Part shown: piece by piece, positions 1-30,463 of the stretch
Layout: the number at the start of each line of letters is the position of its first letter
How positions within the stretch are numbered: position 1 is the first letter of the stretch
Source of the DNA: Polynucleobacter cosmopolitanus
GTDB taxonomy: Bacteria; Pseudomonadota; Gammaproteobacteria; Burkholderiales; Burkholderiaceae
Direction: 5' to 3'
DNA length: 64,000 bases
Assembly: GCF_002224225.1 (NCBI RefSeq)
Contig: NZ_NJGG01000001.1
Span: forward strand, 711,374 to 775,373
Notes under the pieces: model-generated
Database searches by the model: none
Told to the model about the DNA's origin: nothing
The model's input: the letters and a program-made list of their open reading frames with translations, nothing else
Position numbers and translations under genes: made by a program

Positions 1-540
1 TATGAAGGCGATATTTTGGGTATAGAGGGGTCCAATGGGGTTGGAAAAACTACTTTACTTTCAGCGATTGCAGGTATTCTCCCGATTTCTTCAGGAATCC
101 GTGAGGTACGCGGTAAATGCCTGCCCTTATTGGGTTTAGGGCACGTTTTTCACGGTGATTTAGATATAGAAAAAAATGTGCAGCTCTGGGATACTAGTTT
201 TAATTCTCAATTTGATCTGAGCTCTAAGTTTGTCGAGGATGTAATTGAAAAGGCTGGCTTAAGTATTGGCAAGACCACCTTGCTGCGCGCTTTATCTTCC
301 GGCATGAAGTCACGTCTTGCATTTGAATTGGCAATGAGAGACAAGGCTGATATTTTGTTATTGGATGAGGTATTTTCTGTTGGAGATGCTCAATTTCGCG
401 AGCAATCTACCTCTAAGATCAAGGAAAAACTCAAGACACTAGGATGTGCAGTCATCGTTTCTCATGATCGTAAGGTGTTGGAAGATAACTGCTCGAAAAT
501 TATTCGAATTAAAGATGCGAGGACAATTGAGATATGTTGA
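1..540 (+). CDS. Polysaccharide ABC exporter ATPase (Wzt/KpsT/TagH type), 5'-truncated
   Basis: Frame 1 is open from the first base, so the true start lies upstream of the window and about 180 C-terminal residues are visible. The Walker A motif GSNGVGKT is at nt 28-51, the Walker B LLLDE near 355-370 and the H-loop VSHD at 457-468. The ABC signature is the variant SSGMKSRL, typical of O-antigen and teichoic-acid exporters rather than LSGGQ. The protein ends soon after the H-loop, so it lacks the C-terminal carbohydrate-binding domain of many Wzt proteins and is built more like KpsT or TagH. It should energise export of a lipid-linked glycan through the permease encoded directly downstream. 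Family assignment is firm; the exported polymer is unknown. Confidence 0.88.
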   Translation, partial: YEGDILGIEGSNGVGKTTLLSAIAGILPISSGIREVRGKCLPLLGLGHVFHGDLDIEKNVQLWDTSFNSQFDLSSKFVEDVIEKAGLSIGKTTLLRALSSGMKSRLAFELAMRDKADILLLDEVFSVGDAQFREQSTSKIKEKLKTLGCAVIVSHDRKVLEDNCSKIIRIKDARTIEIC

Positions 541-552
541 TTGATTTCATGA

Positions 553-1323
553 ATGAAAATATATATATATTTTTTAAATATGGCACAAGAATTTAATTCC
601 AAGCAAATTAAGAGTTTTACGCTTTTACTTTTGTCGCTTCAGAAGAAAAACACCATACTCGGTTTTGCAATTAGCTTAGTGCCGATGTTGGTGACAGCTT
701 TTTCAATTGAGCTTTTTATTGGCAAGATTATTGGTGGTGAAGTCCATGCTGATGGCATGAAGGGCATAAATGCGATCTTTTTTATTTTCTTTAGTAATGC
801 TATTTTGCAATCAACCGAAGCCTTAAAAAATTACGGTACGATTATTAAGAGCTCGTATTTACACCCAGCAACGGTAATGATTAGTGAGAGCTTGCTGCAA
901 TACGCATCCTTTATTGTTTCTTTTTTGGTTTTAGCGCTCGCTTTTAATATTTCTTTTGAAAAGAGCGCGCTGCTCATTCTTTTATCCTTATTATTAGCTT
1001 TGTATACCTTAGCTGTAACCAACTGTCTTTTGGTGGTTTCTTCGATCCTAGAAGATTTTGGCCGAATTCTGGGCATCATTTTCCAAATGCTTTTTTGGAT
1101 CTCGCCCATCCTGTATTCGGTCCACATGATCAAGTCAGACCTAGTTTATATCTTTATGGCCAATCCCTTTTATATTTTCTTTGAGCTCATTTCTCTGATT
1201 TTTTCACCCCAATCCTTTGACCACCATCTCTTTTGGTGGGGCTTGGGTTCATCCCTAACTTTTTTGGCTGCACTTTATTTATTATTAATGAATTTGCGAA
1301 AAAAGATTCTGGTTTTTCTGTAG
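553..1323 (+). CDS. ABC-2 type polysaccharide export permease (Wzm-like)
   Basis: This 256-residue, strongly hydrophobic protein has about six predicted membrane segments, beginning near residues 35-60 and ending near 225-250. The late motif FWISPILYSVHMI resembles the FY(L)SPI region of ABC-2 polysaccharide permeases. It starts 13 bases after the ATPase stop and forms the expected ATPase-permease pair for exporting undecaprenyl-linked glycan across the inner membrane. The N-terminus is uncertain: an ATG at 580 would give a product starting MAQEFNSK. A short overlapping reading from ATG 534 closes at about 596 and is probably not used. Length fits the Wzm/TagG family. Confidence 0.85.
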   Translation: MKIYIYFLNMAQEFNSKQIKSFTLLLLSLQKKNTILGFAISLVPMLVTAFSIELFIGKIIGGEVHADGMKGINAIFFIFFSNAILQSTEALKNYGTIIKSSYLHPATVMISESLLQYASFIVSFLVLALAFNISFEKSALLILLSLLLALYTLAVTNCLLVVSSILEDFGRILGIIFQMLFWISPILYSVHMIKSDLVYIFMANPFYIFFELISLIFSPQSFDHHLFWWGLGSSLTFLAALYLLLMNLRKKILVFL

Positions 1324-1347: not shown

Positions 1348-2436
1348 ATGTCTATAAGTCTTTTCCGCCCTTCTGTGCCTCCACTGTCTGCCTATTTGCC
1401 ATATCTGGAGATGGTAGAGTCCAATCAGATGTATTCCAATTTTGGACCCCTCCATGATCTTTTTTCGAAAAGGCTGTCTGACTATTTTCTTCTTCAGCCA
1501 AGTCAAATAGAGTTATTCTCAAATGGCACTATGGCCCTGGTTGCTGCATTGCATAGCTTAAAAATTGCTCAGCGCCCTTATTGTCTTTTACCATCTTGGA
1601 CTTTTTCTGCCTCTGCTCAGGCAGTAGTTGCTGCGGGATTGATACCAATCTTTGTTGATGTTGATGAAACTACAATGCAATTAAACGCAGAAATCTTACA
1701 TTCGGTTTCTGAAGAAATACTTAAAAAAACATCTGTAGTATTAATTGTTTCTCCATTTGGTGCGCCACTCAATTTAAGTGGCTTTAAAGAACTCTCAGAA
1801 CATTTTGGCATGAAGGTTCTTTGTGATTGTGCTGCGGGATTTGATGCGGTTCAGCAGATTCAGTTTCCAACGGTGATATCAATGCATGCAACTAAAAGTT
1901 TTGGCATTGGTGAGGGGGGAGCACTTCTTGGTTTGGATGAAGAGTTAATTGCTAATGCTAGGGCTTATAGTAATTTTGGCTTTATGGGTGGTCGAGAGTC
2001 TAGGACGTTAGGTGTTAATGGGAAATTGTCTGAGTTTCATGCCGCAATAGGACTTGCCGCGCTAGATTTGTGGGCGGAGACTAGAAGCGGATATTTTGTG
2101 CAGGCCACGCAGTACTTAAATAATAAAACAGATAGCGATACCTTCCAATTCCAAAATGGGTGGGGTTCAAATTGGATTTCATCTAGCTGCGTTATTAGAT
2201 TTTCTGATGAAAATTTAAAAAGACATAAGAAGAGTCAACTTTTGACCCAAAATATTTCCACAAGAGATTGGTGGGAGAGTGGCTGTCATTTGCAGCCCGC
2301 TTTTAAGAGTTACAAATCTATGGGCTCTTTAAGCAACACTCTTAAACTTGCTTCGGTAACTTTAGGTATCCCTTTTTATCGGGGTATAGATTTTTGTTCG
2401 GTTGATAAGATTTTTCAAATACTCAATGATGTCTAG
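1348..2436 (+). CDS. DegT/DnrJ/EryC1-family PLP-dependent sugar aminotransferase
   Basis: The protein has 362 residues with the fold-type I features of nucleotide-sugar aminotransferases. These are an N-terminal SNFGP segment, an SNGTMAL phosphate-binding turn near residue 55, and the Schiff-base lysine in HATKSFGIGEGG near residue 183. Enzymes of this family convert a keto sugar nucleotide to an amino sugar using glutamate. Here the plausible substrate is the dTDP-4-keto-6-deoxyglucose made by RmlB (11043), or an isomer of it, giving a VioA- or FdtB-like product; this is inferred from context. The 3' end overlaps the next gene by 11 bases. An amino sugar would supply the acceptor for the acyl cassette downstream. 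Confidence 0.85.
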   Translation: MSISLFRPSVPPLSAYLPYLEMVESNQMYSNFGPLHDLFSKRLSDYFLLQPSQIELFSNGTMALVAALHSLKIAQRPYCLLPSWTFSASAQAVVAAGLIPIFVDVDETTMQLNAEILHSVSEEILKKTSVVLIVSPFGAPLNLSGFKELSEHFGMKVLCDCAAGFDAVQQIQFPTVISMHATKSFGIGEGGALLGLDEELIANARAYSNFGFMGGRESRTLGVNGKLSEFHAAIGLAALDLWAETRSGYFVQATQYLNNKTDSDTFQFQNGWGSNWISSSCVIRFSDENLKRHKKSQLLTQNISTRDWWESGCHLQPAFKSYKSMGSLSNTLKLASVTLGIPFYRGIDFCSVDKIFQILNDV

Positions 2437-3292
2437 CCAATTATTGGTAAGTATCCTTATTCCTACATTTCAGCAGGAAGAATTTATACAGGCATGTGTA
2501 GATAGTGTCTCCAATCAAAAATTTGACTTTGATATCGAAATTTTGGTGGGTGATGATTGTTCAATGGATCGAACTTCTGAAATAGTACAGAAGTTAGCTC
2601 AGATTGATCCTCGTATTCATTTATATAAATGGGCCTCTAATGAGGGCGGGCTTAAAAATATAAATAAATTATTGACTCGCGCATCTGGTAAATATATTGC
2701 CATATTGGAGGGGGATGATTATTGGCTGAATCTGGAGCACTTGGCAAAAAGTGTGCAGTATTTAGAGAGTCATCCTGACTGCATTTTTACGGCAGCAAAT
2801 TATTTACATTTAAGTGAAGCCGGGTTAAATCGTTTGCAAAAATTAAACACAAAGTCTAATAAAGTACTTCGTTACTGGCATTTGGCATTGGGTAACTTTA
2901 TTCAAATGGGAACTATTGTTTATCATCGAATTTACTACCCAAAAATTCCAGAGCCCTATTTTGGACTCTCGCTTGGTGACTACCCACTGATCCTCTCTCT
3001 TTTGTCTAAGGGTGCCGGTGTTTATTTGCCGCATGATGCTATGGCTTATAGAATTCACTCTGCTGGCGTTTGGTCTGGTCAGCCCTCGAAGATTCAGGCG
3101 GAAAAAACAATAGAGGTGCTCTCCCAGCTGATCAAGCAGGAGGTTGATCCTCTAAACAAAGTACTTTTGAGTAGTTATAAGTCCAAACTTGAGTTGCAAA
3201 TTGACTTGCGGATGAATTGGAAAAGACTGTTTGGTCTTGGGATTTATACAGCTTTATTCTGCTGCCGTAAGATTATTATAAGATTTCCATAA
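2426..3292 (+). CDS. Glycosyltransferase family 2
   Basis: This is a GT-A fold transferase of about 288 residues. Its N-terminal SILIPTFQQEEFI, VGDDCSMDRT and EGDDYW motifs are those of GT2 enzymes, with the last serving as the metal and nucleotide-sugar binding DxD region. I chose the tandem ATG at 2426/2429, which overlaps the aminotransferase stop, because the frame extends upstream only to a TTG at 2402 inside that gene. It ends with a hydrophobic, arginine-bracketed tail near residues 270-285 that may touch the membrane. Donor and acceptor sugars cannot be told from the sequence. It probably adds one residue of the surface glycan on the cytoplasmic face. Confidence 0.82.
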   Translation: MMSSQLLVSILIPTFQQEEFIQACVDSVSNQKFDFDIEILVGDDCSMDRTSEIVQKLAQIDPRIHLYKWASNEGGLKNINKLLTRASGKYIAILEGDDYWLNLEHLAKSVQYLESHPDCIFTAANYLHLSEAGLNRLQKLNTKSNKVLRYWHLALGNFIQMGTIVYHRIYYPKIPEPYFGLSLGDYPLILSLLSKGAGVYLPHDAMAYRIHSAGVWSGQPSKIQAEKTIEVLSQLIKQEVDPLNKVLLSSYKSKLELQIDLRMNWKRLFGLGIYTALFCCRKIIIRFP

Positions 3293-3431: not shown

Positions 3432-3659
3432 TTGGATTTCGAAGAATTTAAACAAGAGTTTTTAATAGCATGTGACTTTATTGAAGAGCCTGTTTTGGCC
3501 GAAGATACCGAATTGGATAAAATCCCAGATTTTGATTCACTAGCAATGTTGGGTGTGATTGTTATGCTGGAGACGCAGTTTGGCATTACGGCATCTGGTG
3601 ATGATGTAATGCGTTTGAGCACTATGGGTGGATTGCATAAATTTGCAACCAAGCAATAA
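3432..3659 (+). CDS. Acyl carrier protein
   Basis: The product is an acidic 75-residue protein with the DSL motif (DFDSLAML); Ser36 is the expected phosphopantetheine attachment site. The frame starts with TTG, preceded nine bases upstream by a good Shine-Dalgarno AGGGAG (3417-3422). No ATG is available before the conserved core. It is diverged from the housekeeping AcpP type and sits at the head of the cassette, overlapping the KAS III gene by the TAATG arrangement. It should carry the growing or finished acyl group for the condensing enzyme, reductases and acyltransferase that follow. Family is certain, the acyl cargo is not. Confidence 0.9.
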   Translation: MDFEEFKQEFLIACDFIEEPVLAEDTELDKIPDFDSLAMLGVIVMLETQFGITASGDDVMRLSTMGGLHKFATKQ

Positions 3660-4714
3660 TGACTATATCCATAATCGAAAATGTAGCAGTCAGAGGCATC
3701 GTCACGGTTGTGCCAGAGGCGTATATTGATAATTTAGATGTGCCCGAGGATCAATTAAGACAACGTCAACGTTTAATTAAGCACATTGGAATTCGCTACA
3801 GACATATATGTCGTAATGGAATGATTTTTTCTGATCTAGCTCAAAAAAGTGTTGAGTATTTGTTGGATGGCCTTGGTTGGGAAGGTGACTCGATTGATGC
3901 TTTAATTTTAGTAACCCAGTCGCCAGAGTACACAATACCCGCAACATCCTGTATTTTGCAGGATAGACTTGGATTGCCAACTTCAGTCTCGGCATTTGAT
4001 ATTAACTTAGGTTGCTCTGGGTATACCTATGGGCTCTTTACTTGCGCATCAATGATTGGCAAAAAACGCTTTAAGCGAGTCATTGCCATTATTGGAGATC
4101 AATCCGGCTCTGATGGCTCTGCAGATAATGGTTGGGAAGTTTTGTTTGGCGATTCTTGCTCGGCTACAGCATTAGAGTTTGAAGAAGGTGCCTCAGATAT
4201 GTACTTTGAGGGCAATACTGATGGTTCCGGCTATGACAAGATTATTATTCCCCATGGTGGTCGTCGTCATCCTTTTGGAGCTGACAGCTTACAGCCCATA
4301 ACAGGAGAGGATGGTATTACACGCTCCCCCATGGATGTCAAATTGGACGGCCCAGCCATTATGAACTTTTCTGTTAACAAGGCCCCCGAATCAATCAACC
4401 GCGTACTGGCTTCATTAGGAAAAAATGTGGCAGATATTGATTATTTTGTTATGCATCAAGCAAATAAAATGATCAATGACACTATTAAATTTAAGGTGGG
4501 TGGTGTACCAGAACAATGGCCACTTTCGCTTGAAAATTATGGCAATACTAGCTCCACATCTATCCCCATGACAATCACTGGAAATCTTTCAAAAGAAACC
4601 TCTGAAGGTAAGGTAAAGTGGCTAACATGTGGTTTTGGAATCGGACTCAGTTGGGGAACTCTCTACTTCGAAACTGATAAGATTTTCTGTCCTCCTCCTA
4701 TTGAGATTAAATAA
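3659..4714 (+). CDS. 3-oxoacyl-ACP synthase III (FabH/KAS III family)
   Basis: This is a 351-residue thiolase-fold condensing enzyme. The KAS III triad is visible: Cys119 in NLGCSGYTYG, His266 in VMHQANKM and Asn296 in ENYGNTSS. Such enzymes join an acyl-CoA starter to malonyl-ACP; with acetyl-CoA they yield acetoacetyl-ACP, the precursor of 3-hydroxybutyryl groups found on some O-antigen and flagellin sugars. The start codon overlaps the ACP stop (TAATG), which implies translational coupling. It is longer than E. coli FabH (about 317 residues), with an extended loop around residues 145-230. Starter specificity cannot be predicted. Confidence 0.92.
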   Translation: MTISIIENVAVRGIVTVVPEAYIDNLDVPEDQLRQRQRLIKHIGIRYRHICRNGMIFSDLAQKSVEYLLDGLGWEGDSIDALILVTQSPEYTIPATSCILQDRLGLPTSVSAFDINLGCSGYTYGLFTCASMIGKKRFKRVIAIIGDQSGSDGSADNGWEVLFGDSCSATALEFEEGASDMYFEGNTDGSGYDKIIIPHGGRRHPFGADSLQPITGEDGITRSPMDVKLDGPAIMNFSVNKAPESINRVLASLGKNVADIDYFVMHQANKMINDTIKFKVGGVPEQWPLSLENYGNTSSTSIPMTITGNLSKETSEGKVKWLTCGFGIGLSWGTLYFETDKIFCPPPIEIK

Positions 4715-4717
4715 AAA

Positions 4718-5455
4718 ATGAAAGAGCTGTTTGATTTCAATGCCAAGAAGTATTTGGTAACTGGAAGCTCCCGCGGTATTGGGGAGGCTGTTGTTAAAGC
4801 CTTACTAAGCCATGGTGCTGAAGTTTGGGGTGTTGCTAGGACGAGTTTTGATGAATCCCTTTGCTTGAATGCAAACTTCCATCCAATTATTGCTGACTTA
4901 TCTTCGTCAGAGTCTAGGGGGCTGATCCTAGAAAATTCACCAGATTCTTTTGACGGCATCTTTTTAAATGCGGGAGCATCTGGAAAAATTAAGCCATTTA
5001 ACTTAGTTAACGAAGATGAAATGAAGCAATTATTTGAGCTTAATTTTTTCTCCCCATTTTTTCTTTTCCAAGATCTTTATAAGCAAAGAAAAGTAAAGGC
5101 TGGAGCTTCAGTTGTAGTGAATACCGCCAGTGGTGTATTTTATGACACTGCTGCATCTAGTTCATATTGTGGTTCAAAGGGGGCAATGCAAGCTGCTTTT
5201 AGAAGTGTAGGTGCCGATGTGGCTCGTAGAAATATCCGAGTAAATTTTATAGCCTTTGGGTATGTTGAAACTGAGCTACTAAAAACTAACAACGTGCCCG
5301 ATACCATCAAGGCTCTTGCCCCTCTGGGTGTCCCCTATCCAGAAGATGTTTCTGGGGGTGTCCTTTACTTATTAAGTGCTGCATCTAAGTGGATGTCAGG
5401 AACTACACTGCTTTCTGATTCAGGACTCAATTTAAAGAAGACGGCTTTACTATGA
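4718..5455 (+). CDS. Short-chain dehydrogenase/reductase (FabG-like), first of two
   Basis: A 245-residue Rossmann enzyme of the classical SDR family. The cofactor motif TGSSRGIG is near residue 16, NAGAS near 87, and the catalytic Ser-Tyr-Lys set is in TASGVF and SSYCGSKGA (near 139-157). TGSSRGIG suggests NADPH preference. It begins three bases after the KAS III stop, so it probably reduces the 3-keto group of the ACP-bound product, like FabG. Action on a sugar nucleotide is possible but less likely given its neighbours. It overlaps the next SDR gene by the ATGA arrangement. Confidence 0.88.
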   Translation: MKELFDFNAKKYLVTGSSRGIGEAVVKALLSHGAEVWGVARTSFDESLCLNANFHPIIADLSSSESRGLILENSPDSFDGIFLNAGASGKIKPFNLVNEDEMKQLFELNFFSPFFLFQDLYKQRKVKAGASVVVNTASGVFYDTAASSSYCGSKGAMQAAFRSVGADVARRNIRVNFIAFGYVETELLKTNNVPDTIKALAPLGVPYPEDVSGGVLYLLSAASKWMSGTTLLSDSGLNLKKTALL

Positions 5456-6180
5456 AGAGCTTTATTGATTTGAGCGGCAAATATTTTTTAGTTGTTGGCG
5501 CCTCTTCTGGAATTGGCAAGGGGATTGTGCAGGGTTTGGCTGAGTTGGGTGCAAATGTTCACGCTTTATCGCGAAGGGGTTCTGCTGATGAACTTTCTAA
5601 TCTACCTTCAGTAATGCAGGTGAGCTTGGATGCAACAGACCCCACTGCTATAGGAAATTTTATCAAAGGTGTCGAGATACCCTATTCGGGCTTTATCTAT
5701 TCTGCAGGCATGCGTGGGAAAAGCCCAATCAATACCATAACTAACAAGCAAGTTAATGAAGTCTTTGATACAAATTTAATGGGTTTTTTGAATTTCATTA
5801 AAGAGATGATTAGAAATAAAAAAATCGACACAGGATCTTCAATAGTGGCTATATCCTCGGTTTCGGCGCATATTGGGATCGAGGGGTTGGTCCCGTATTC
5901 AGCCTCCAAAGCAGCAATATCATCAAGCGTCAGGGTTTTAGGAAGAGAACTATCTAAGCGTCAAATTAGGATTAATGCAATTTCTCCTGCGATGGTTAGA
6001 ACACCTATTTTTTTGGATTCCGAACAAGAGTGGCTGAACGAAGTTGAAAAAGGTTATCCACTTGGCTTAGGTGAGGTGGATGATGTGGCGGCAGCCTGCG
6101 CCTTCTTTATGTCGGATCAGTCAAAGTATATTACCGGCACTGATCTTTTAATGACGGGTGGATGCCCCTGGCATAGTTGA
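5452..6180 (+). CDS. Short-chain dehydrogenase/reductase, second of two
   Basis: A 242-residue classical SDR with VGASSGIGKG near residue 15, SAGMRG near 81, SSVSA near 140 and the catalytic VPYSASKAA near 153-161. It starts inside the stop of the previous SDR (ATGA). The two proteins are clearly different in sequence, so this is not a recent duplication. Two reductases beside one KAS suggest either two oxidation-state changes in the acyl group or one reaction on the sugar. The product could be an acyl 3-hydroxyl, or a hydroxyl formed by the Rieske oxygenases and reoxidised to a ketone. Confidence 0.87.
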   Translation: MKSFIDLSGKYFLVVGASSGIGKGIVQGLAELGANVHALSRRGSADELSNLPSVMQVSLDATDPTAIGNFIKGVEIPYSGFIYSAGMRGKSPINTITNKQVNEVFDTNLMGFLNFIKEMIRNKKIDTGSSIVAISSVSAHIGIEGLVPYSASKAAISSSVRVLGRELSKRQIRINAISPAMVRTPIFLDSEQEWLNEVEKGYPLGLGEVDDVAAACAFFMSDQSKYITGTDLLMTGGCPWHS

Positions 6181-6181
6181 C

Positions 6182-6808
6182 ATGGATTACTTATATATTG
6201 TTGGAGCAGGCGGCCTTGGTGTGGAAGTGTTGGATCTCCTAAAAAAAGATTCAGCCTATCAAAAAGAGTGGTCAATTGCTGGTTTTATAGATTCAAGAGT
6301 TGAAAAAAAAGGCATGTTAATTGGGGGGGTCCCAGTAATTGGGGGGGTAGAGGATGCTCCTATCCATGGCAAAGCAATTTATTGTAGTGCTATTGGCGAT
6401 ATGGTTCTTAAGAAGCAGTTGGTTTCTGCTCTTATTGCCAGGGGATGTAGATTTATTCCAATAGTAACTAAATGTAACATTGGTGAAGGGTCTATTTTTG
6501 GGTCGACCGTTATTCAGCTTAACGCATCTATTTCTGCTTTTGTAAAAATTGGTGACCATGTATATCTAGATACAAATTGTGCTATTGGTCACCATGTTAC
6601 AGTAGGTGATTATTCGCACATAGGGCGTGGAGTATTTGTTGGTGGTAGAGCAATTATTGGCTCCGAAGTTATTATTCATGCTGGCGCACTTATAGCTAGC
6701 GATATAAAAATTGGAAATAACGTCACCATAGGGCTTGGCTCTGTGGTTCTTAGAAATGTTCCGGATGGTGCAACAGTTTTAGGAAATCCTGCCCGCATAA
6801 TTAAATGA
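6182..6808 (+). CDS. NeuD/PglD-family sugar O/N-acyltransferase
   Basis: About 208 residues from the ATG at 6182, two bases after the upstream stop; an in-frame GTG at 6158 is less likely. The N-terminal part (VGAGGLGVEVLDLL) is the PglD/NeuD nucleotide-binding subdomain. The C-terminal half is a left-handed beta helix of hexapeptide repeats (IGDHVYLDTNCAIGHHVTVG) ending in the usual NVPDGATVLGNPARII. Family members transfer acetyl or other acyl groups to amino or hydroxyl groups of nucleotide sugars; the His in GHH is the expected base. Here the donor is plausibly the acyl-ACP made by the cassette and the acceptor the DegT product. That pairing is inference. Confidence 0.85.
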   Translation: MDYLYIVGAGGLGVEVLDLLKKDSAYQKEWSIAGFIDSRVEKKGMLIGGVPVIGGVEDAPIHGKAIYCSAIGDMVLKKQLVSALIARGCRFIPIVTKCNIGEGSIFGSTVIQLNASISAFVKIGDHVYLDTNCAIGHHVTVGDYSHIGRGVFVGGRAIIGSEVIIHAGALIASDIKIGNNVTIGLGSVVLRNVPDGATVLGNPARIIK

Positions 6809-6827
6809 TAGCTAATAGGCAACCAAA

Positions 6828-7949
6828 ATGAAGTCAGCAATATTCAGGCCGGAATGGTATACGGAAGCATCATATTTTTATAAGGAAAAAGAAAATCTTT
6901 TTAACAGGGTTTGGAATCTCAGTGGTTTTACTAATTCAGTTAAAAGCCCGGGTGACTTCTTTACTCTACAAATTTTTAATCAGGAAATAGTTGTCCATAA
7001 TATCGCTGGAAAACTAAGGGCTTACTTAAACGTATGTCCTCACCGAGGAGGTCCTCTAGTTGTTGAGAAATTTGGAAATGGTGCGCCTGTATGTAAGTAC
7101 CACGGTTGGTCGTTTCGCGATGGTGGCGATTTAACGGGGGTATCAAATATTGAATGGTTTAATAATGGCGGCGAAAAAGATTCATGTGGAAAATCTTTAA
7201 AGACTTACCCTTTAACAACAATTGGACCATTCATATTTATATTCATTGGTTGCAACCCAATACCTATTGATTTGCAATTTTCTAAGGAGGTTATTGAAAC
7301 TTTAAGTAGTTACGAGGAGTTAAGTGCATCAATAACTTCAGAATTTGAAGCAAATTTCAACTGGAAATTGAATATGGAAAATGTGAAGGATTTTCTTCAC
7401 CCTTACTATGTTCACGAGCAAAGTTTTAAGCCTCTATTGGGTTTTGAGCAGGCGGCAACCATCTTAATGAAGAAGTCCGATAAAGTGCCGGGAGAATTTT
7501 ATAAAAAAACCACTTTGAAAGAGTTGTCATTTATCCAAAGAGGTGAATTCTCAGTATCGGCATCTCAAAGATGGTGGACTAAATTTATAAAAATTACTCA
7601 ACCTGATAACTGTTTCCAAAATATATTTTTATTTCCAAATGTAAATATGTACTCCGTAAGCGGTACTCATTATGTGGTTCAGCAGTATCTACCTATGTCT
7701 CCAAATAAGTTCCTGTATCGACTAAATGTCTCTTTTCCAGAAATCTTGGAAAAATTTGAATCAAAAGATTTGCTTTGTAATCTTTTGGAGATTGAGCGCA
7801 ATGTAATTAGAGAGGATGAGATAGTTCTTGATAGGTTGCAAAAAAGTATGGAGGCGAAAATGTCTGAAGAGCATTTCGCTCACGGCGATTACGAGAATTA
7901 CATCATGGAGCAGCAAATTTATATGCGAGATGAGGTTTATTTTGAATAA
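6828..7949 (+). CDS. Rieske [2Fe-2S] non-haem iron oxygenase, first of two
   Basis: A 373-residue protein with the architecture of ring-hydroxylating oxygenase alpha subunits. The Rieske cluster ligands are Cys70-x-His72 (CPHRGG) and Cys89-x2-His92 (CKYHGW). The mononuclear iron site is ENVKDFLHPYYVH, with Asp188, His191 and His196. Such enzymes use O2 and electrons from a reductase to hydroxylate or desaturate a substrate. No ferredoxin, reductase or beta subunit is encoded nearby. Being in a glycan locus next to ACP and KAS genes, it may hydroxylate the acyl group or the acylated sugar; CMP-Neu5Ac hydroxylase is a known Rieske enzyme that hydroxylates an N-acyl group on a nucleotide sugar. 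Substrate is unknown. Confidence 0.88.
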   Translation: MKSAIFRPEWYTEASYFYKEKENLFNRVWNLSGFTNSVKSPGDFFTLQIFNQEIVVHNIAGKLRAYLNVCPHRGGPLVVEKFGNGAPVCKYHGWSFRDGGDLTGVSNIEWFNNGGEKDSCGKSLKTYPLTTIGPFIFIFIGCNPIPIDLQFSKEVIETLSSYEELSASITSEFEANFNWKLNMENVKDFLHPYYVHEQSFKPLLGFEQAATILMKKSDKVPGEFYKKTTLKELSFIQRGEFSVSASQRWWTKFIKITQPDNCFQNIFLFPNVNMYSVSGTHYVVQQYLPMSPNKFLYRLNVSFPEILEKFESKDLLCNLLEIERNVIREDEIVLDRLQKSMEAKMSEEHFAHGDYENYIMEQQIYMRDEVYFE

Positions 7950-9024
7950 TCAGGTTGGCTATCAAGTAAATCCAAATGACTATTTTGATGAAGATTATTT
8001 TAATGAAGAGCTAAGTAATATTTTAAATAAGTATTGGATTTTTTTGTGCCCTGAGAGCATTTTAAAAAAAGAGAATGATTATTTCGTATTCAAAGGCTTT
8101 GAAAAAGAGATTGTTTTAAAAAGGGTCTCAGATAATCAAATCGTTAGTTTTAATAACGTTTGTATGCATCGTGGGCATAAACTTTTTTTAGATCCAATAG
8201 GTAACTCCGAAACAAGATGTCAATATCATGGATGGCTTTATGGCGGAGATCTTGCCTTAAAAAACATTCCTTGGAATGATAAATGCTATCACCTAAATAA
8301 GGATGAGGTATCTTTAGAAAAATTTTGTGAAATTAGGGTGCAGGATGGATGTGTTTGGGGTTATTTTGGTAAGAACGATTCTCAAAATGCACTTTATCCC
8401 GCCTCTGAGGTTTCTGAGCAATTGAAATTATTCAATCAGTATTCAAGCCCACCCTTCTCATTAACAGTAAATAAAAAAAAATTTAACTGGAAGCTAATTT
8501 TTGAAAATCTTTATGACCGTGTTCATCCAACTTTTTTACATAAAAATTCACTAAACAAAAATTTTGACATTAATTTTAAAGATTACCCTAAAGATTTTTC
8601 TGTGGATGGGGTAGAAGATTTTGTTAAGGCAAACATTGAACAAATAGGTAGTCAAAAAAATCAGGATATGAACAACGCTGAAGGTGGAAATTTTCCTCTG
8701 TCGGGATACGTAAATGGGCATATTTTTCCTTTCCTGCATTTTTTAACTCCGAATAGCGGCAATACCTTTTCGTATGAATCTTATATTCCTGTAAGTAAAA
8801 CTGAAGTAATAATTTATACATTTTGGGTTTCCTCATCTTTACTTCCCGCATCTAACCGAATTAGTTTTTTGACTGAAACGCTTAAGGGGGCGTCAAAGGT
8901 ATTAAATGAAGATTGGGATGCAGTTGAATCAATATCTGAGGTAAAACAAAAGCCAAAAAATTATTATTATGGTGCTCATGAAAAAAGCTTTTACGGCTTA
9001 AAAAAACTTGGTCAAAAAAAATGA
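7930..9024 (+). CDS. Rieske [2Fe-2S] non-haem iron oxygenase, second of two
   Basis: A 364-residue protein with Rieske ligands Cys78-x-His80 (CMHRGH) and Cys97-x2-His100 (CQYHGW). The catalytic iron site is ENLYDRVHPTFLH, with Asp196, His199 and His204. Start choice: ATG 7930 overlaps the previous gene by 20 bases; TTG 7942 has a better-spaced GATGAGG upstream and may be the real start. It is collinear with its neighbour but strongly diverged and very A-rich, so the pair may act as two successive oxygenases or a heteromer. Both have full metal ligand sets, which argues against one being only structural. It overlaps the next gene by ATGA. Confidence 0.86.
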   Translation: MRFILNNQVGYQVNPNDYFDEDYFNEELSNILNKYWIFLCPESILKKENDYFVFKGFEKEIVLKRVSDNQIVSFNNVCMHRGHKLFLDPIGNSETRCQYHGWLYGGDLALKNIPWNDKCYHLNKDEVSLEKFCEIRVQDGCVWGYFGKNDSQNALYPASEVSEQLKLFNQYSSPPFSLTVNKKKFNWKLIFENLYDRVHPTFLHKNSLNKNFDINFKDYPKDFSVDGVEDFVKANIEQIGSQKNQDMNNAEGGNFPLSGYVNGHIFPFLHFLTPNSGNTFSYESYIPVSKTEVIIYTFWVSSSLLPASNRISFLTETLKGASKVLNEDWDAVESISEVKQKPKNYYYGAHEKSFYGLKKLGQKK

Positions 9025-9623
9025 AGAATTATTTAATTTCAAATCCCTATTTATTGCCAGCTTTCCTTGATGACATTGAGCAATCTAATGGAAAAATTAT
9101 TGAGTTAAAGTCTGATGATGGCTTTAATTTTGATTTGTCTCAAATTGCATTTTCAGGGGAGGATGATAATTATTTGATTTCTAATGGAAATTTTAGTAAT
9201 CAAGCTCGATTAACGCTATTCGCCAAACTGATGGAGTGTGGAGTTAGATTGAAACCTTTGATCTGTTCGAAGGCTCTTTGTTCGCCTGGCGTGAAGATTG
9301 GAATGGCCTCAGTTATATATTCAAACGTATTAATTGATAGTAATGTATCGATAGGTTTTAATAGTATTGTTGCTCCTAATGTCATGATTGAACATGAGGT
9401 AAAAATTGGCAATCACTGTTTTATCGGCCCCAATGTAATTTTAGAGCAAGGGGTTGTTATTGGAAACAATGTCTATATTCATGGAAATTGCAGAATTACT
9501 AAAGAGGTAAAAATAGAGCGTGATGTCGTCATTAATGATTCTTACGTCGTGATTAGGGAATTAGTAAAGACTGGAATGATTCTTGATTCAGATATAGGTG
9601 ATTTTGTTAGGATTCTTCGTTAA
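9021..9623 (+). CDS. Left-handed beta-helix acyltransferase (hexapeptide repeats, LpxD/NeuD-like)
   Basis: A 200-residue protein whose residues about 85-185 are hexapeptide repeats (VKIGNHCFIGPNVILEQGVVIG and following turns). The N-terminal 80 residues are not the usual PglD nucleotide-binding domain and end in LMECGVRLKPLICSKAL, like the entry to an acyltransferase helix. A His in IEHEVKIGNH or YIHGN may be the catalytic base. It starts inside the stop of the second Rieske gene. It is a second, different acyltransferase in the same operon, so the cassette either acylates two positions or this protein binds an acylated intermediate. No specific function can be assigned. Confidence 0.75.
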   Translation: MKNYLISNPYLLPAFLDDIEQSNGKIIELKSDDGFNFDLSQIAFSGEDDNYLISNGNFSNQARLTLFAKLMECGVRLKPLICSKALCSPGVKIGMASVIYSNVLIDSNVSIGFNSIVAPNVMIEHEVKIGNHCFIGPNVILEQGVVIGNNVYIHGNCRITKEVKIERDVVINDSYVVIRELVKTGMILDSDIGDFVRILR

Positions 9624-9627
9624 GTAA

Positions 9628-10041
9628 ATGCAATTATTGAAGTTAAATACTTGGCATGAATTCTTGTATACAGTTTCAATGAGGGATACAGATGCAACAG
9701 GTTTAGTTTTTCATCCCAAATATCTTGAAATATTGACTGCGGCACGAGAAGACTTGGCGGAGCGTCTTGGGATGGACCTTCAGAGCTTGAATAATAGATA
9801 TGGAGCCATGCTTGTGGTGCATACTATGGATGTAAATTTTATTGGGCCAGCCCGTTTGCGCTCTGAGTTAATGGTTAAAACTGCAATTCTCAAGATTAAA
9901 AACGCAAAAATTACAATCTCACATGAAGTATTTTCAGTTGGAGACGGTAATAGATTAATTCTTCGTGCCTTAATGACTTATGCGTATGTCGATGCAAATA
10001 CTTTACTTCCAATGTCAATTCCGCTCGAGTTTATATCTTAA
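9628..10041 (+). CDS. Hotdog-fold acyl-CoA/acyl-ACP thioesterase (YbgC/4HBT-like)
   Basis: A 137-residue single-domain hotdog protein. The segment RDTDATGLVFHPKYLEI near residues 19-35 matches the YbgC/4-hydroxybenzoyl-CoA thioesterase signature, in which the first Asp of DTDATG is catalytic. The ending with ALMTYAYVD is typical. It lies four bases after the previous stop and is the last intact gene of the cassette. Likely roles are releasing or editing the acyl group on the ACP or CoA, or clearing mis-primed ACP. The operon ends here: the next kilobase has no intact gene. Confidence 0.8.
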   Translation: MQLLKLNTWHEFLYTVSMRDTDATGLVFHPKYLEILTAAREDLAERLGMDLQSLNNRYGAMLVVHTMDVNFIGPARLRSELMVKTAILKIKNAKITISHEVFSVGDGNRLILRALMTYAYVDANTLLPMSIPLEFIS

Positions 10042-11042
10042 TTTTGTGTCTTGTGAAGATTTTCAATATCCTAATCATTGGGAGATAAAGTTGTCTTTAT
10101 CATCAGATTCAATTTCATGAGTTCCTTCTAAATATTCCATTACAGCGCTTGTTTTAGACTGGGAAGCCCTAATAATAAAAATGATGGGTATCCTAGAGCT
10201 AGAGCTTAGAGAGTCGTTGCCATCGGACTTCTTTTATTTCAAGAGGTTGATTTCTATGTTTCTCAAGAAAACTATCTCAATTGACTTCCTGTCACTTTTA
10301 TAGATATCCCATGGCCAGGCAGTGGAATGCTTTACTTGGCAGACAGCTATTTTCTGGTGGGCGCAAGTGAAGCATTTTTTCAATTGCATCTATATCGCTA
10401 GTGGCCGTCAAACTGCTCCAGACCCGATTCTTTACTATCGACTCATCAAAGCTAAAGTGATCTAAAGTGAGGATTTAGTTGCCATGGATGTGTTACAAAA
10501 AGTCCCAGAGAAATCCGATTAGCTGCAAAATCTTGGGGTCTATGAGCGCCAAAAAATACGGATTAATCAATTTTTAGACAAATATATACATAATTAACTA
10601 TGATGAGTTGCGTCCTCGTATTAGGCTTTGGAAAACAATTCGGTATTTATTTCGATAGCATTAGTAGAAAAGATAACGATTATCAGGATGGCACGGTAAG
10701 CTAAGAGTTGAATAGCTACCGATCTCTCTAAGATGGTTTTATCGAGTTCAGTAAAAATCAGGTACATCAAGTTATGAAGGTAGTTGCGCGCGCCTCAAAA
10801 GAATCCAGGAAATTAGTGAAATGAAATAACTATTTTCTAAATAAGAATCAATGGTTTGGCATGATTTAATTCGGCGACTTATTTGTTAAAAACATGTGTG
10901 TCGTAAACAGAAGAAGCATTTATATATCGCTGAACTAGGTGATTTACTGTTGTCAACGATCTCTTCATTTCAAGCTTTGAAAAATATTCAAATAGTACCT
11001 TCCTGTGAGAAAATCATGATTATTCATTTAAGTAAGTAAATT
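10042..11042. other. 1-kb region without intact genes; decayed coding sequence likely
   Basis: No open frame above about 60 codons exists. On the plus strand several adjoining stretches still look protein-like but are broken by stops and frame changes. Frame 1 is open 10210-10281 and 10285-10398 (including DIPWPGSGMLYLADSYF from 10303), interrupted by stops at 10207, 10282 and 10399. Another frame is open about 10302-10459 (ending APDPILYYRLIKAKVI). A third stretch near 10525-10596 reads LGVYERQKIRINQFLDKY. I do not recognise the ancestral family. The region separates the acyl cassette from rmlBDAC and probably marks a recombination scar. No insertion-sequence ends were seen. Confidence 0.5.
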
Positions 11043-12116
11043 ATGATCCTAGTCACAGGCGGTGCAGGGTTTATCGGCGGCAATTTTGTGTTGGATTGGT
11101 TGGGCAATCCTTCAGCTGAAGGTGTGGTTAATCTTGATAAATTAACCTATGCAGGTAATTTGACCACTCTACAGTCTTTGTCTTCTGATACTCGTCACGT
11201 GTTTGCGCATGGTGATATTAGTAATTACGAGTTAGTTCTGTCTTTACTTAAAAAGCATTCCATTCGCGCAGTTGTGAACTTTGCTGCTGAGTCCCATGTG
11301 GATCGCTCGATTCATGGCCCTGGTGACTTTATTCAGACCAATGTGGTGGGTACATTTAATTTGTTGGAAGCAGTTCGTGCTTATTGGTCAGATTTGCCAG
11401 AATCAGAAAAAAAATCCTTTCGTTTCTTACACGTGTCGACTGATGAAGTTTATGGATCTTTGTCTCCAGCGGACCCTGCTTTCTCAGAAACTAATCCGTA
11501 TGAACCGAACAGTCCATACTCTGCATCTAAGGCAGCATCTGATCATTTGGTGCGTGCTTGGCACCATACCTATGGCTTGCCAGTCTTAACTACCAATTGC
11601 TCTAATAATTACGGCCCTTATCACTTTCCAGAGAAATTGATTCCTCTAGTGATTCTGAATGCCCTCGCTGGTAAACCTTTGCCTATTTATGGCGACGGTC
11701 AGCAAATCCGTGATTGGCTCTATGTGAAGGATCATTGCTCAGCTATTCGTCGTGTATTAGAAGCAGGTAAGTTAGGTGAGACCTATAACGTGGGTAGTTG
11801 GAATGAAAAACCAAACCTAGACGTTGTTCATACAATTTGCTCGATTTTGGATAGCTTACGTCCAAAGGCTGATGGGACTTCTTACGCATCACAAATTACT
11901 TATGTCAAAGATCGCCCGGGCCATGATCGTCGCTATGCGATTGATGCCACTAAACTTGAGCGTGAATTAGGCTGGAAACCCGCTGAAACGTTCGAGACGG
12001 GTATACGTAAAACAGTGCAGTGGTATCTTGATAACCAAGGGTGGACTAATGGAGTTCTCAGTGGCTCTTATCGTGATTGGGTGCAAAAACAATACAGCAA
12101 TCCAACTGATCAATGA
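11043..12116 (+). CDS. rfbB: dTDP-glucose 4,6-dehydratase
   Basis: A 357-residue extended SDR that converts dTDP-glucose to dTDP-4-keto-6-deoxyglucose, the second step to dTDP-L-rhamnose. Visible motifs are [10 protein letters not shown] at residue 6 for NAD binding, [17 protein letters not shown] with the catalytic Thr-Asp-Glu near 135, and [10 protein letters not shown] (Tyr and Lys near 160). The C-terminal [12 protein letters not shown] is characteristic of RmlB. It heads an rmlB-D-A-C group in the same direction. Its product may also feed the sugar aminotransferase at 1348. Confidence 0.96.
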
Positions 12117-12178
12117 TGATTGATTGCTGGTTGTTCATTCTAATGACTAATAATTAATAGCTAATTGCTGACCCTTAT

Positions 12179-13177
12179 ATGTCTTACTCATCCTTTGAAC
12201 TTCTAGATCACAGCCGACCTGTTTTGGTATTTGGACGAAATGGACAGGTAGGTAGAGCTTTGCAAGTTTGTTTAAAAGATCTGAAGGTACCCGCTGTTTT
12301 CTTGGGTCGTGCTGATTGTGATTTAACGAGTGAGTCTTCTATTGTTAAGGTATTAAATCGTTATCAGCCCCAAGTAATCATCAATGCGGCTGCTTATACA
12401 GCTGTTGATAAGGCTGAGAATTTAGGTGAACGAGACCATGCTTTTGCTATCAATGCCAGGGCACCCGCTGTGATGGCTAGTTACATTGCCAATGTAGCTC
12501 ATGGCATTTTGGTTCATTATTCAACCGATTACGTCTTTGCAGATACCAAAAAAGATGCTTACTTTGAAACTGATCCAGTTGGGCCCGTTGAGAATTTAAA
12601 TATCTACGGCCAGAGTAAGTTGGCAGGCGAACGGGCGATTGAAGAGGTATTCAACTTAGCCCATAACTCTGGTCACACAAGTTACGCTGATAAGTTTGCA
12701 AGATATTTCATTTTGAGAACATCGTGGGTGTATGGCGATGGTGGTAACTTTATTCGCACGATATTGCGTTTGGCTGCTGAGCGAGATCAATTGAAAGTGG
12801 TGGCTGATCAAGTAGGTGCTCCGACATCAGCCCAATGGTTGGCCGAGATAGGTGTTCAAATGGCTGGGTCTCGAGTTGAATCAGGAATCTATCATGCAGT
12901 ACCTGATGGTGAAGCTTCATGGCACGGTCTAGCTGTATTTGCGATAGAAACTGCAGCCAGTTGTGGTGAAGGCATTGAAGTGAGGTCTGAGAATATCTTG
13001 CCAATACCCGCGAGTGATTATCCTGTGCCTGCAAAAAGACCTTATAACTCCCGATTAAGTAGTGCTAAGTTAAAGAAGGCTCTCTCTGAGATGGCTTTTA
13101 CTGGTCAATATCCACATTGGCAAAAACAAGTAGAAGCATATGTTAAAGAATATGTGTCAAACTCTTTAAAAAGCTAG
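12179..13177 (+). CDS. rfbD: dTDP-4-dehydrorhamnose reductase
   Basis: A 332-residue RmlD. GRNGQVGRAL near residue 20 is the NADPH-binding turn, AAAYTAVDKAE near 72 and STDYVFAD near 118 are family-typical, and YGQSKLAGE near 142 holds the catalytic Tyr and Lys. It reduces dTDP-4-keto-L-rhamnose to dTDP-L-rhamnose. It is somewhat longer than E. coli RmlD (299 residues), with an insertion of about 15 residues around 158-172. It lies 62 bases after rfbB. Confidence 0.95.
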   Translation: MSYSSFELLDHSRPVLVFGRNGQVGRALQVCLKDLKVPAVFLGRADCDLTSESSIVKVLNRYQPQVIINAAAYTAVDKAENLGERDHAFAINARAPAVMASYIANVAHGILVHYSTDYVFADTKKDAYFETDPVGPVENLNIYGQSKLAGERAIEEVFNLAHNSGHTSYADKFARYFILRTSWVYGDGGNFIRTILRLAAERDQLKVVADQVGAPTSAQWLAEIGVQMAGSRVESGIYHAVPDGEASWHGLAVFAIETAASCGEGIEVRSENILPIPASDYPVPAKRPYNSRLSSAKLKKALSEMAFTGQYPHWQKQVEAYVKEYVSNSLKS

Positions 13178-13225
13178 TTCACTATTAATATAAGAAAATA
13201 TAAAAAATATTGAGAAAGTACAACA

Positions 13226-14125
13226 ATGAGCAAACATTCATTGAATAATCGTAAAGGCATCATCCTTGCTGGTGGCTCTGGTACACGTTTGTATCCAGTG
13301 ACTCAAGCCGTTTCTAAGCAGTTGATGCCGGTGTATGACAAGCCGATGGTGTATTACCCACTTACAACATTGATGTTGGCTGGTATCAAAGATATTTTAT
13401 TAATTTCAACACCGCAAGATACGCCTCGTTTTACTGAGTTATTGGGTGACGGTTCTCAATGGGGTTTGAATATTCGGTACGCTGTACAGCCTTCTCCTGA
13501 TGGTTTGGCGCAAGCATTCATCATCGGTAAAGAATTTGTGGGTAATAACCCTTCAGCTTTAGTGTTGGGTGACAACATTTTTTATGGCCATGAATTAGTC
13601 AATCAATTACATTCTGCCAATCAACGAACTTCAGGTGCCACAGTATTTGCCTATCACGTGAACGATCCTGAGCGTTATGGGGTTGTTGAATTTGATGATT
13701 CTTTTAAGGCTTTATCGATTGAAGAAAAGCCTGTGAAGCCAAAGAGTAACTATGCTGTCACTGGTTTGTATTTCTATGATCAGCAAGTGTGCGACATTGC
13801 TAAATCTATCAAGCCAAGTGCTCGTGGTGAATTAGAAATCACAGCTGTGAATGAGGCATACTTAAAAATGAATCAACTTCAAGTTGAGATCATGGGTCGT
13901 GGTTTTGCCTGGTTGGACACGGGCACACATGATTCTTTATTAGATGCAGCAGGCTTTATTGCAACACTTCAGAAGCGTCAAGGTTTGATGGTGGCTTGCC
14001 CAGAAGAGATTGCATATCGCCAAGGCTGGATCAGCGCTGAGCATGTGCTTAAATTGGCTGCGCCACTGAAGAAAAATGCTTATGGTCAGTATTTAGAGAA
14101 AATGTTGACTGAGCGATTGTCTTAA
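13226..14125 (+). CDS. rfbA: Glucose-1-phosphate thymidylyltransferase
   Basis: A 299-residue nucleotidyltransferase making dTDP-glucose from dTTP and glucose 1-phosphate, the first step of dTDP-rhamnose synthesis. The N-terminal [13 protein letters not shown] is the nucleotide-binding signature. [20 protein letters not shown] and [13 protein letters not shown] are diagnostic for RmlA. Length equals the usual family length. It is normally feedback-inhibited by dTDP-rhamnose. Confidence 0.96.
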
Positions 14126-14212
14126 CTTTTTGTATTCAAGCTTGTGTTTAGAATAGCCAAGAGTTTCATCCATTCAGTAAAAATTAAAGTAAATTAAAGT
14201 GAAGAACAACTA

Positions 14213-14764
14213 ATGCCTATAACTGCGACCCCTACTTCAATACCTGATGTTTTAGTGATTGAGCCAACAGTTTTTGGCGATGATCGCGGTTGGTTTTTTG
14301 AATCATTTAACGAAAAAGACTTTTCTGCTGCAGTAGGTAAATCAGTTAGTTTTGTTCAAGATAATCATTCATCCTCTAAAAAGGGTGTGTTGCGTGGTCT
14401 TCATTACCAAATGGAACAAACGCAGGGTAAGTTAGTTCGGGTATGTCATGGTGCTGTGTTCGATATAGCTGTTGATCTTAGAAGGTCATCTCTAACGTTT
14501 GGTAAATGGATGGGTGTCGAGCTATCAGCAGAGAACAAAAAACAATTATGGGTGCCTCCGGGGTTTGCTCATGGATTTTTGGTGCTGTCTGAGACCGCTG
14601 AGTTTTTGTACAAAACAACTGATTACTGGCATGCAGGGAGCGAAAAGTGTATTGTTTGGAATGATGAAACTTTGAATATCCAATGGCCTAATCTTGGAAT
14701 GCGGCCAGTACTTAATCCAAAGGATGCGGCTGGTTTAACCTGGAATGATGCGCCAAAGTTTTAA
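14213..14764 (+). CDS. rfbC: dTDP-4-dehydrorhamnose 3,5-epimerase
   Basis: A 183-residue cupin epimerase that acts between RmlB and RmlD. The catalytic region QDNHSSSKKGVLRGLHYQ near residues 50-67 holds the conserved His and Arg, and PPGFAHGFLVLSE near 115 is the second family motif. Full length for the family. It completes the rmlBDAC set, so the cell can make dTDP-L-rhamnose for the rhamnosyltransferase-like enzymes downstream. Confidence 0.96.
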   Translation: MPITATPTSIPDVLVIEPTVFGDDRGWFFESFNEKDFSAAVGKSVSFVQDNHSSSKKGVLRGLHYQMEQTQGKLVRVCHGAVFDIAVDLRRSSLTFGKWMGVELSAENKKQLWVPPGFAHGFLVLSETAEFLYKTTDYWHAGSEKCIVWNDETLNIQWPNLGMRPVLNPKDAAGLTWNDAPKF

Positions 14765-30228: not shown

Positions 30229-30463
30229 TATAGTTAGCCTTAAGATCACTGATACCAAAACCTTGGGTGAATTGCTGCGTGCCCAAAGAAAGGCTTTGGG
30301 CCTGACTCAATTAGACATGGCTGGCGTTGGGAATAGTGGTAACCGATTCATTGTTGAATTGGAGGCTGGTAAACCAACGGTTCAGTTCCAAAAAACTTTG
30401 GACACACTCAACCTTTTGGGTTTGGAAATGGTGATCAGAGAAAAAACATCGGGTGATCTTTGA
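30194..30463 (+). CDS. hipB: HipB-type antitoxin, XRE family DNA-binding protein
   Basis: An 89-residue protein with a helix-turn-helix of the Cro/XRE type: LGELLRAQRKALGLTQLDMAGVGN near 25-48, then a segment RFIVELEAGKPTVQFQKTLDTLNLLGLEM typical of HipB. It should dimerise, bind HipA and repress the hipBA operon. The unusual start region (KKLPLSNIVSLKITD) precedes the domain; one operator-like site falls within it. The stop overlaps the hipA start as TGATG. Confidence 0.9.
   Translation: MRKYHKKLPLSNIVSLKITDTKTLGELLRAQRKALGLTQLDMAGVGNSGNRFIVELEAGKPTVQFQKTLDTLNLLGLEMVIREKTSGDL

Follow-up and report, generated by a model that had tools for sequence, protein, structure and literature searches.

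The window analyzed here is a stretch of 64,000 nucleotides from Polynucleobacter cosmopolitanus, and all positions count from its first letter. At 3432-10041, it carries nine tightly packed plus-strand genes for an acyl carrier protein (ACP), a 3-oxoacyl-ACP synthase III (KAS III), two short-chain dehydrogenases/reductases (SDRs), a NeuD-type acyltransferase, two Rieske oxygenases, a further left-handed beta-helix (LbH) protein that we call AT2, and a hotdog thioesterase. We found that the set ACP-KAS III-SDR(-SDR)-NeuD acyltransferase-Rieske occurs repeatedly as a glycan cassette and that its two-oxygenase feature also recurs. The most interesting result is that most Rieske enzymes of the family have a dedicated LbH partner encoded directly after them; judged from their sequence trees, the two form a co-inherited pair, which is new here. 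In the reading that we favor, to which we give a probability of roughly 0.55, the cassette carries out 3-hydroxyacyl synthesis resembling type II fatty acid synthesis, Rieske oxidation, and N-acylation of a DegT-derived amino sugar of an exported polysaccharide.

The original prediction had proposed nine genes and a family for each, and at this level it held throughout. All nine open reading frames (ORFs) are present and intact, and each protein matched its family above the Pfam gathering score, the narrow passes being those of the ACP (23.4 versus 20.8 bits) and the Rieske 2 catalytic domain (26.3 versus 24.9 bits; the Rieske domain of the same protein scored 49.9 versus 20.3). The residues that had been named, Ser36 in the DSL motif of the ACP and Cys119, His266, and Asn296 of KAS III, were exact. 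The SDRs are indeed two different proteins, each with its own best match in a related locus (L114, described below), and both Rieske oxygenases are complete, with the CxH-x16-CxxH cluster motif and the Asp/His/His/Asp residues expected of a mononuclear iron site. The second beta-helix protein and the thioesterase were likewise recovered by Pfam, the former also having an LbH fold when modeled. The NeuD-type protein keeps the acyltransferase His column, which we take to be catalytic, in agreement with the title of a structure entry for the PerB H141 mutant.

To place the cassette among its relatives, GTDB genome contigs were scanned with a KAS III alignment, which gave at least 524 confirmed relatives, and the best 80 loci were analyzed. 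These are the best-scoring loci and not a random sample, and many are from Xanthomonas. At least one Rieske gene was present in 57 of the 80, and at least two were present in 16. This count dropped two motif-bearing ORFs lying outside the cassette (L065, 10175; L100, 9481) and kept 75 of 77. ACPs 32 to 51% identical to that of the window were found by tblastn in 68/80 loci. Of the 57 loci with a Rieske gene, 53 also have a DegT gene, and 55 have DegT or flagellar genes; the remaining two (L024 and L031) are short and lie at contig ends. Flagellar genes, scored by phmmer with Escherichia coli queries at E 1e-6 with fliA and fliI excluded, were present in 27/57 Rieske loci (L035 counts by fliC alone) and in 25 of the 44 that have at least 20 kb of DNA. 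The 23 loci without a Rieske gene included 4 with flagellar genes. Conservation is thus wide but goes together with glycan genes, and not away from them, the setting that had been named beforehand as speaking against the prediction; the one exception is L114, on whose contig no DegT was seen. These related loci led us to reject the idea that the cassette is a unique one-off. What appeared to be one odd locus belongs to a traceable family, in which 57 of the best 80 related loci have oxygenases in apparent flagellin or surface-polysaccharide acyl pathways. Its acyl groups are likely to be surface epitopes, and its members with one, two, or no Rieske genes form a natural range across which gene content could be matched to glycan masses.

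Among close relatives, the cassette is patchy. KAS III at E 1e-60 was found in 2/151 genomes of the genus and in 3/369 genomes of a class sample, and Rieske 1 at E 1e-30 was found in 4/299 genomes of the family, the window's own genome being included each time. The second genus member (genome G705, locus L020) has ACP, KAS III, SDR, NeuD, and Rieske genes on a stretch with fliE, fliF, and DegT and also encodes a large glycosyltransferase-like protein, by eye of the tetratricopeptide repeat (TPR) type. When plasmids were searched with Rieske 1, the only matches were four Azospirillum records, at 27%. On one of them, A. brasilense p3 (L015, 9970-15300), genes for KAS III, SDR, Rieske, SDR, and GNAT proteins lie between the pseudaminic acid genes pseG and pseI, with a second ACP/ligase/SDR/KAS III set close by.

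The kind of system involved is known from printed cases in Pseudomonas syringae, Xanthomonas, and Flavobacterium psychrophilum. The presence of N-(3-hydroxy-1-oxobutyl)-viosamine on P. syringae flagellin depends on vioA, vioB, vioR, and further genes; the mutants in these three genes have flagellin without the modified viosamine, and the island also holds vioS (KAS III) and acp (PMC3927599). The window matches this island (vioA, acp, vioS, vioR, vioB) in its DegT, ACP, KAS III, FabG-like reductase, and NeuD/VioB-type acyltransferase, with the ACP Ser, the KAS III Cys-His-Asn, and the acyltransferase His in place and with DegT and deoxythymidine diphosphate (dTDP)-sugar ORFs linked. The island differs in that its gene list, as printed, contains no Rieske, second SDR, post-Rieske LbH, or thioesterase gene and in that its target is flagellin and not a polysaccharide. 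In Xanthomonas strain Xcv 85-10, XCV2013-XCV2007 encode an aminotransferase, an ACP, a 3-oxoacyl-ACP synthase, two SDRs, an acetyltransferase, and a Rieske protein inside the flagellar cluster (PMC3826837, Table 5). The order DegT-ACP-KAS III-SDR-SDR-acyltransferase-Rieske is that of the window, which adds a family 2 glycosyltransferase (GT2) gene after DegT. The Xanthomonas table differs in having one Rieske gene and in listing no ABC transporter or thioesterase, whereas the window cassette is outside any flagellar cluster, with ABC transporter and rml genes around it. Xanthomonas oryzae gigX1-10 are flagellin glycosylation genes under RpoN2/FleQ (PMC8657755) and would appear to be the same island as XCV2013-XCV2007. 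A literature search for a role of Rieske proteins in flagellin glycosylation or O-antigen synthesis gave, among the papers examined, only the Xanthomonas gene table. Therefore, the earlier description of the window cassette as undescribed, and of the combination with two oxygenases as unrecognized, did not stand, given this one-Rieske version in print and the loci with at least two Rieske genes.

The 3,5-dihydroxyhexanoyl group that nuclear magnetic resonance revealed in the F. psychrophilum O-polysaccharide is the predicted product of wfpC-wfpG, which encode an ACP, two KAS enzymes, a ketoreductase, and a PglD homologue (PMC6519341). The likeness lies in an ACP, a KAS, a ketoreductase, and a PglD-type acyltransferase serving an O-polysaccharide N-acyl group, and the difference lies in the two KAS genes and in the source naming no Rieske protein. 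The extra hydroxyl of that group would come from a second elongation round. Among the relatives of the window cassette, L070, L083, L085, L087, L088, L091, L092, and L101, mostly from Bacteroidota, have two KAS III genes and an SDR gene and no Rieske gene; perhaps they gain extra hydroxyls by elongation and not by oxidation, as the F. psychrophilum genes would.

We then looked at the nearest relatives. In the KAS III tree (all trees were made by FastTree, without bootstrap), the window grouped with Bordetella (support, 0.98) and next with a Pseudogulbenkiania metagenome-assembled genome (MAG) (1.0). Its branch is shared with Bordetella hinzii, B. pseudohinzii, B. trematum, and Bordetella genomosp. 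12 (L023-L025 and L027), whose KAS III proteins are 57 to 60% identical to that of the window and are the nearest sequences among the best 80. In these relatives, as in the window, the cassette abuts an ABC transporter, and among the best 80 loci, a homologue of the ABC ATPase turned up nowhere but in these four, which all belong to the B. hinzii group. The L027 genes (genomosp. 12) run ABC-2 permease, ABC ATPase, ACP, KAS III, SDR, SDR, NeuD, Rieske, LbH, bacterial sugar transferase (PF02397), and DegT; this locus differs from the window in having DegT and the sugar-1-phosphate transferase downstream and no thioesterase. B. hinzii and B. pseudohinzii resemble the window in having two tandem Rieske genes followed by one LbH gene; however, both tandem Rieskes belong to the Rieske 1 branch, and neither is orthologous to Rieske 2 of the window. 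A B. hinzii contig (L024, 1340-13965) has two related cassettes around one ABC ATPase gene, the first with one Rieske gene and the second with two. Our literature search found no O-chain structures for B. hinzii or B. trematum.

For Rieske 2, a search of a 398-genome phylum sample at E 1e-25 gave one relative outside the window's own genome, that of L114 (genome G1126, from another family). L114 is colinear with the window for ACP, KAS III, SDR 1, SDR 2, NeuD, and both Rieskes, with one-to-one best matches, and its KAS III is 50% identical to that of the window. The order after NeuD is Rieske 2-type, LbH, Rieske 1-type, LbH, so that the order of the two Rieskes is reversed and an LbH gene follows each of them, whereas the window has one LbH gene after two Rieske genes. 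Because this colinear cassette has orthologues of both, the combination of Rieske 1 with Rieske 2 probably predates the window genome. Beside the L114 cassette, at 7599-9947, genes appear to encode a glycosyltransferase and a sugar kinase of the GHMP type, by sequence impression only.

Next, we examined what follows each Rieske gene. Neighbors were labeled mechanically, and as these labels are noisy (some ORFs are merged, and NeuD and AT2 are not always told apart), they were used for adjacency only. Among the 71 of 77 motif-bearing Rieske ORFs of the 80 loci that could be judged, 56 were directly followed by an LbH gene, in one case (L035) of NeuD type. The 15 exceptions are two Bordetella Rieske-Rieske-LbH cases, ten genes of a separate Rieske branch (six of them from loci that also hold flagellar genes), the second Rieske gene of L090, and the two ORFs outside the cassette in L065 and L100. 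With L035 removed, the Rieske and LbH trees of the remaining 55 pairs agreed closely (Mantel r, 0.911; maximum of 1000 permutations, 0.297). In the nine loci with two pairs, each LbH protein tracked its own Rieske in 18/18 within-locus tests. Because linked genes travel together, controls with other linked genes were run. In 29 single-pair loci, r was 0.941 for Rieske-LbH, 0.745 for Rieske-NeuD, and 0.443 for Rieske-KAS III, and over 47 pairs, the values were 0.886, 0.497, and 0.285, respectively. Additionally, 52 partners fell inside one 54-member LbH clade (FastTree support, 0.90), whose two remaining members also come from Rieske loci.

The partners also differ from NeuD at the His column. 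A His occupies it in 6/56 partners versus 53/64 other, mostly NeuD-type LbH proteins, counted after the NeuD-type proteins of L021 and L035 had been moved out of the partner set (8/58 before); these sets include L012, L020, and L021, from outside the 80 loci. The model of AT2 (mean predicted local distance difference test score [pLDDT], 92.5) has the fold of the PglB acetyltransferase domain (PglB-AcT), PerB, PglD, and VioB. AT2 thus has the LbH fold and, at His125, the His of PglD/NeuD-type enzymes, although 50/56 related partners have no His in that column. Because it keeps this His, AT2 may be a working acyltransferase. From these results, we offer a tentative model, which we consider rather doubtful as it stands. 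Each Rieske of the family would be a two-part enzyme with a cognate LbH partner, a former sugar acyltransferase that has mostly lost its His and presents the nucleotide-sugar-bound acyl substrate, the two three-fold symmetric trimers docking onto each other. If this is true, the LbH protein is a novel kind of oxygenase partner, and the glycan pathway in which it works writes hydroxylation patterns onto N-acyl groups; the pairing itself makes such a partner a concrete, testable prediction.

The two Rieske enzymes of the window are 30% identical to each other across 198 aligned residues. Rieske 2 sits on its own long branch in the Rieske tree, a lineage apart from Rieske 1. This branch and the separate L114 orthologue led us to reject a simple tandem copy of the Bordetella kind. 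The Rieske 1 model (mean pLDDT, 90.3) has the carnitine monooxygenase CntA and stachydrine demethylase as its nearest folds, with CntA the closest. The best NCBIfam model is GbcA, far below the cutoff. CntA and stachydrine demethylase are alpha-only type oxygenases. Identity with the CntA/GbcA systems is about 20%, and, as a further difference, no reductase gene was found beside the window oxygenase. No beta-subunit family was found among the nine cassette proteins with Pfam, a search confined to the cassette. Four PF00970 reductase-type proteins are encoded elsewhere in the genome. With three of them as tblastn queries (the fourth, L106, was left out), relatives were found in 0/80 loci and none in the window; a reductase inside these loci was therefore rejected. 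Electrons are likely to be supplied in trans, with the three query proteins as candidates for that role. NamH, with UlaG and Rieske domains, is a precedent for hydroxylation of a sugar's N-acyl group by a Rieske-domain enzyme (PMC10050696). Kinship of the window oxygenases with CMAH/NamH was rejected on domain content, since they carry Rieske and Ring_hydroxyl_A domains instead of UlaG and Rieske.

In the pathway that we favor, KAS III would condense an acyl-coenzyme A with malonyl on the cassette ACP, and an SDR would reduce the ketone to give 3-hydroxyacyl-ACP. The NeuD/VioB-type enzyme would move the acyl group to the DegT-placed amino group of a nucleotide sugar, for which a dTDP-6-deoxy sugar made by RmlA/RmlB is the most likely candidate. 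Both alpha-only Rieskes would then hydroxylate the acyl part (less likely the sugar) with electrons from a reductase encoded elsewhere, SDR 2 would adjust the oxidation level, and AT2 would acylate the new hydroxyl or present the substrate. The finished sugar would enter a polysaccharide exported by the neighboring ABC transporter. By homology with experimentally tested systems, ACP, KAS III, SDR, NeuD, and DegT would together yield an N-3-hydroxyacyl amino sugar; acyl hydroxylation, the roles of SDR 2 and AT2, and export are steps that we infer. The prediction remains the best reading insofar as the cassette makes an acyl group, carries out an oxidation, and attaches the acyl group to an amino sugar, given the match to the viosamine island core and the DegT or flagellar genes of its relatives, while its part in which the Rieskes act on the acyl group and not on the sugar stays a presumption.

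Several results weigh against this picture. None of the 80 loci has a counterpart of the thioesterase, the 28 kb contig of L114 has no DegT, and the searched literature gave no product for a Rieske-bearing cassette. With flagellin and a flagellar cluster also present in the genome, the ABC transporter is only the presumed exporter. As for the pairing, co-inheritance of Rieske and LbH proves neither contact nor joint chemistry, and the NeuD control correlation is itself fairly high in the single-pair loci. The partners of the window and Bordetella lie outside the 54-member clade, and the loss of His does not hold for AT2 of the window. When a His anywhere in a similar turn was allowed by regular expression, 34/58 partners and 53/64 others qualified, so a displaced His in the partners is possible.

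The oxygenases might instead oxidize the sugar, at a ring carbon or the 6-deoxy methyl group, with the LbH partner acylating the new hydroxyl and KAS III and ACP supplying the N-acyl group only. The Rieske-LbH pair is separable: the P. syringae core has none in its printed form, and other loci have one or two. The LbH fold is a sugar acyltransferase fold whose His is kept in AT2. We nevertheless judge sugar oxidation somewhat unlikely because a His in only 6/56 partners makes the usual acylation mechanism doubtful across the family; nothing separates acyl from sugar directly, and 23/80 KAS III loci have no Rieske.

The target could also be flagellin, as is thought for the Xanthomonas relatives, with the polysaccharide locus incidental. 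Flagellar genes in nearly half of the Rieske loci, the flagellin of the window genome, and the one-Rieske cassette inside flagellar genes in L020 of the same genus are consistent with this. However, about 670 kb separate the cassette from the flagellar genes found on the same contig, tblastn found no cassette gene in 40 kb around those genes (L115 and L116), and no large TPR-type glycosyltransferase like that of L020 was recognized beside the cassette, by eye and without a search. The closest relatives of the best 80 adjoin an ABC transporter and have no flagellar gene in the stretches examined, and we therefore consider flagellin an improbable target. Still further down is a small secondary-metabolite or lipid pathway with the surface-sugar genes as mere neighbors. 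A Rieske, ACP, KAS III, SDR, and thioesterase set fits small-molecule synthesis, and the thioesterase could free an acid, but two LbH proteins of sugar acyltransferase type, the DegT and glycosyltransferase genes of the same gene row, and the DegT or flagellar genes of nearly all Rieske-bearing relatives make this very improbable.

The thioesterase stands apart from the other cassette genes. It gave no phmmer match even at E 10 among 7627 ORFs of 85 related loci, in which a spiked copy was recovered, no match in L114, and, apart from its own genome, no hit at E 1e-20 among 300 genomes of the order. Because these searches gave no relatives, it alone among the cassette parts seems specific to this locus, and it may be an editing enzyme.

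Table. Genes in and around the cassette, in window coordinates
Feature	Position	Strand	Basis
ABC transporter ATPase (Wzt/KpsT-like)	1..540	+	PF00005; start upstream of window; full ORF 228 amino acids, L007:15228-15914
ABC-2 type permease, presumed ATPase partner	553..1323	+	PF01061 weak, 23.3 bits, below cutoff of 26.9; adjoins ATPase
DegT/DnrJ/EryC1 sugar aminotransferase, presumed amino sugar source	1348..2436	+	PF01041, 165 bits; nearest solved chain 3ju7
Family 2 glycosyltransferase (GT2)	2402..3292	+	PF00535
Dedicated ACP, Ser36 in DSL	3432..3659	+	PF00550
KAS III, Cys119-His266-Asn296	3659..4714	+	PF08541/PF08545
SDR 1, FabG-like reductase	4718..5455	+	PF13561; best match SDRa of L114, 39%
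SDR 2, FabG-like reductase	5452..6180	+	PF13561; best match SDRb of L114, 38.5%
NeuD/PglD/VioB-type sugar N-acyltransferase, His in IGHHVTVG	6182..6808	+	PF17836, PF00132; TIGR03570, 154 bits, below cutoff of 160.8
Rieske oxygenase 1 (alpha-only type)	6828..7949	+	PF00355+PF00848; in tree, sister to Bordetella copies
Rieske oxygenase 2, divergent	7930..9024	+	PF00355+PF00848; best match RieX of L114, 29% over 360 amino acids
Post-Rieske LbH protein AT2, His125 present	9021..9623	+	PF00132; LbH fold in model
Hotdog (4HBT) thioesterase	9628..10041	+	PF13279/PF03061
rmlB, rmlD, rmlA, rmlC	11043..14764	+	ORFs seen; names from sequence likeness

With the starts that we chose, the junctions of the cassette genes are, in order, -1, 3, -4, 1, 19, -20, -4, and 4 bases. 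The starts at 6182 for NeuD and 7930 for Rieske 2 (both ATG) are more likely than those at 6158 and 7828 and differ slightly from the original prediction; that of the ACP would be a TTG, preceded by gggagaaa. Upstream on the same strand, the order is ABC ATPase, ABC-2 permease, DegT, and GT2. The rmlB, rmlD, rmlA, and rmlC ORFs, named by sequence likeness and not by a family search, presumably supply dTDP-4-keto-6-deoxyglucose and dTDP-rhamnose. Past them are a flippase-type protein and family 2 and family 4 glycosyltransferases, with an O-antigen ligase-type protein on the opposite strand. The approximately 1 kb between the thioesterase and rmlB (10042-11042) has no start-codon ORF of at least 60 amino acids, only short broken frames, and looks like a decayed gene or an insertion. 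The G+C content of the cassette is 0.379 versus 0.447 in the last 38 kb of the window, in a small genome of 1.78 Mb. Such a low value would fit the acquisition of a surface-glycan locus, although the entire first 26 kb is low.

Some neighboring genes in the related loci were also recorded. A gene for an FkbM-type methyltransferase (PF05050) of about 400 amino acids lies beside the Rieske genes in L028 (13330-14550), L042 (16878-18053), and L054 (14957-16171), and other loci have similar-sized ORFs at this position, a likeness of size only. The Burkholderia-type loci L012, L013, and L014 have, on the opposite strand, a second, divergent KAS III gene adjoining DegT. Two MAG contigs that bear the title Bordetella parapertussis (L030 and L039) have the cassette at 47 to 49% KAS III identity and lie apart from the B. 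hinzii group in the tree, and these titles are probably mistaken. In the window itself, an ORF at 30460-31713 resembles a HipA-type kinase toxin, as judged by eye only.

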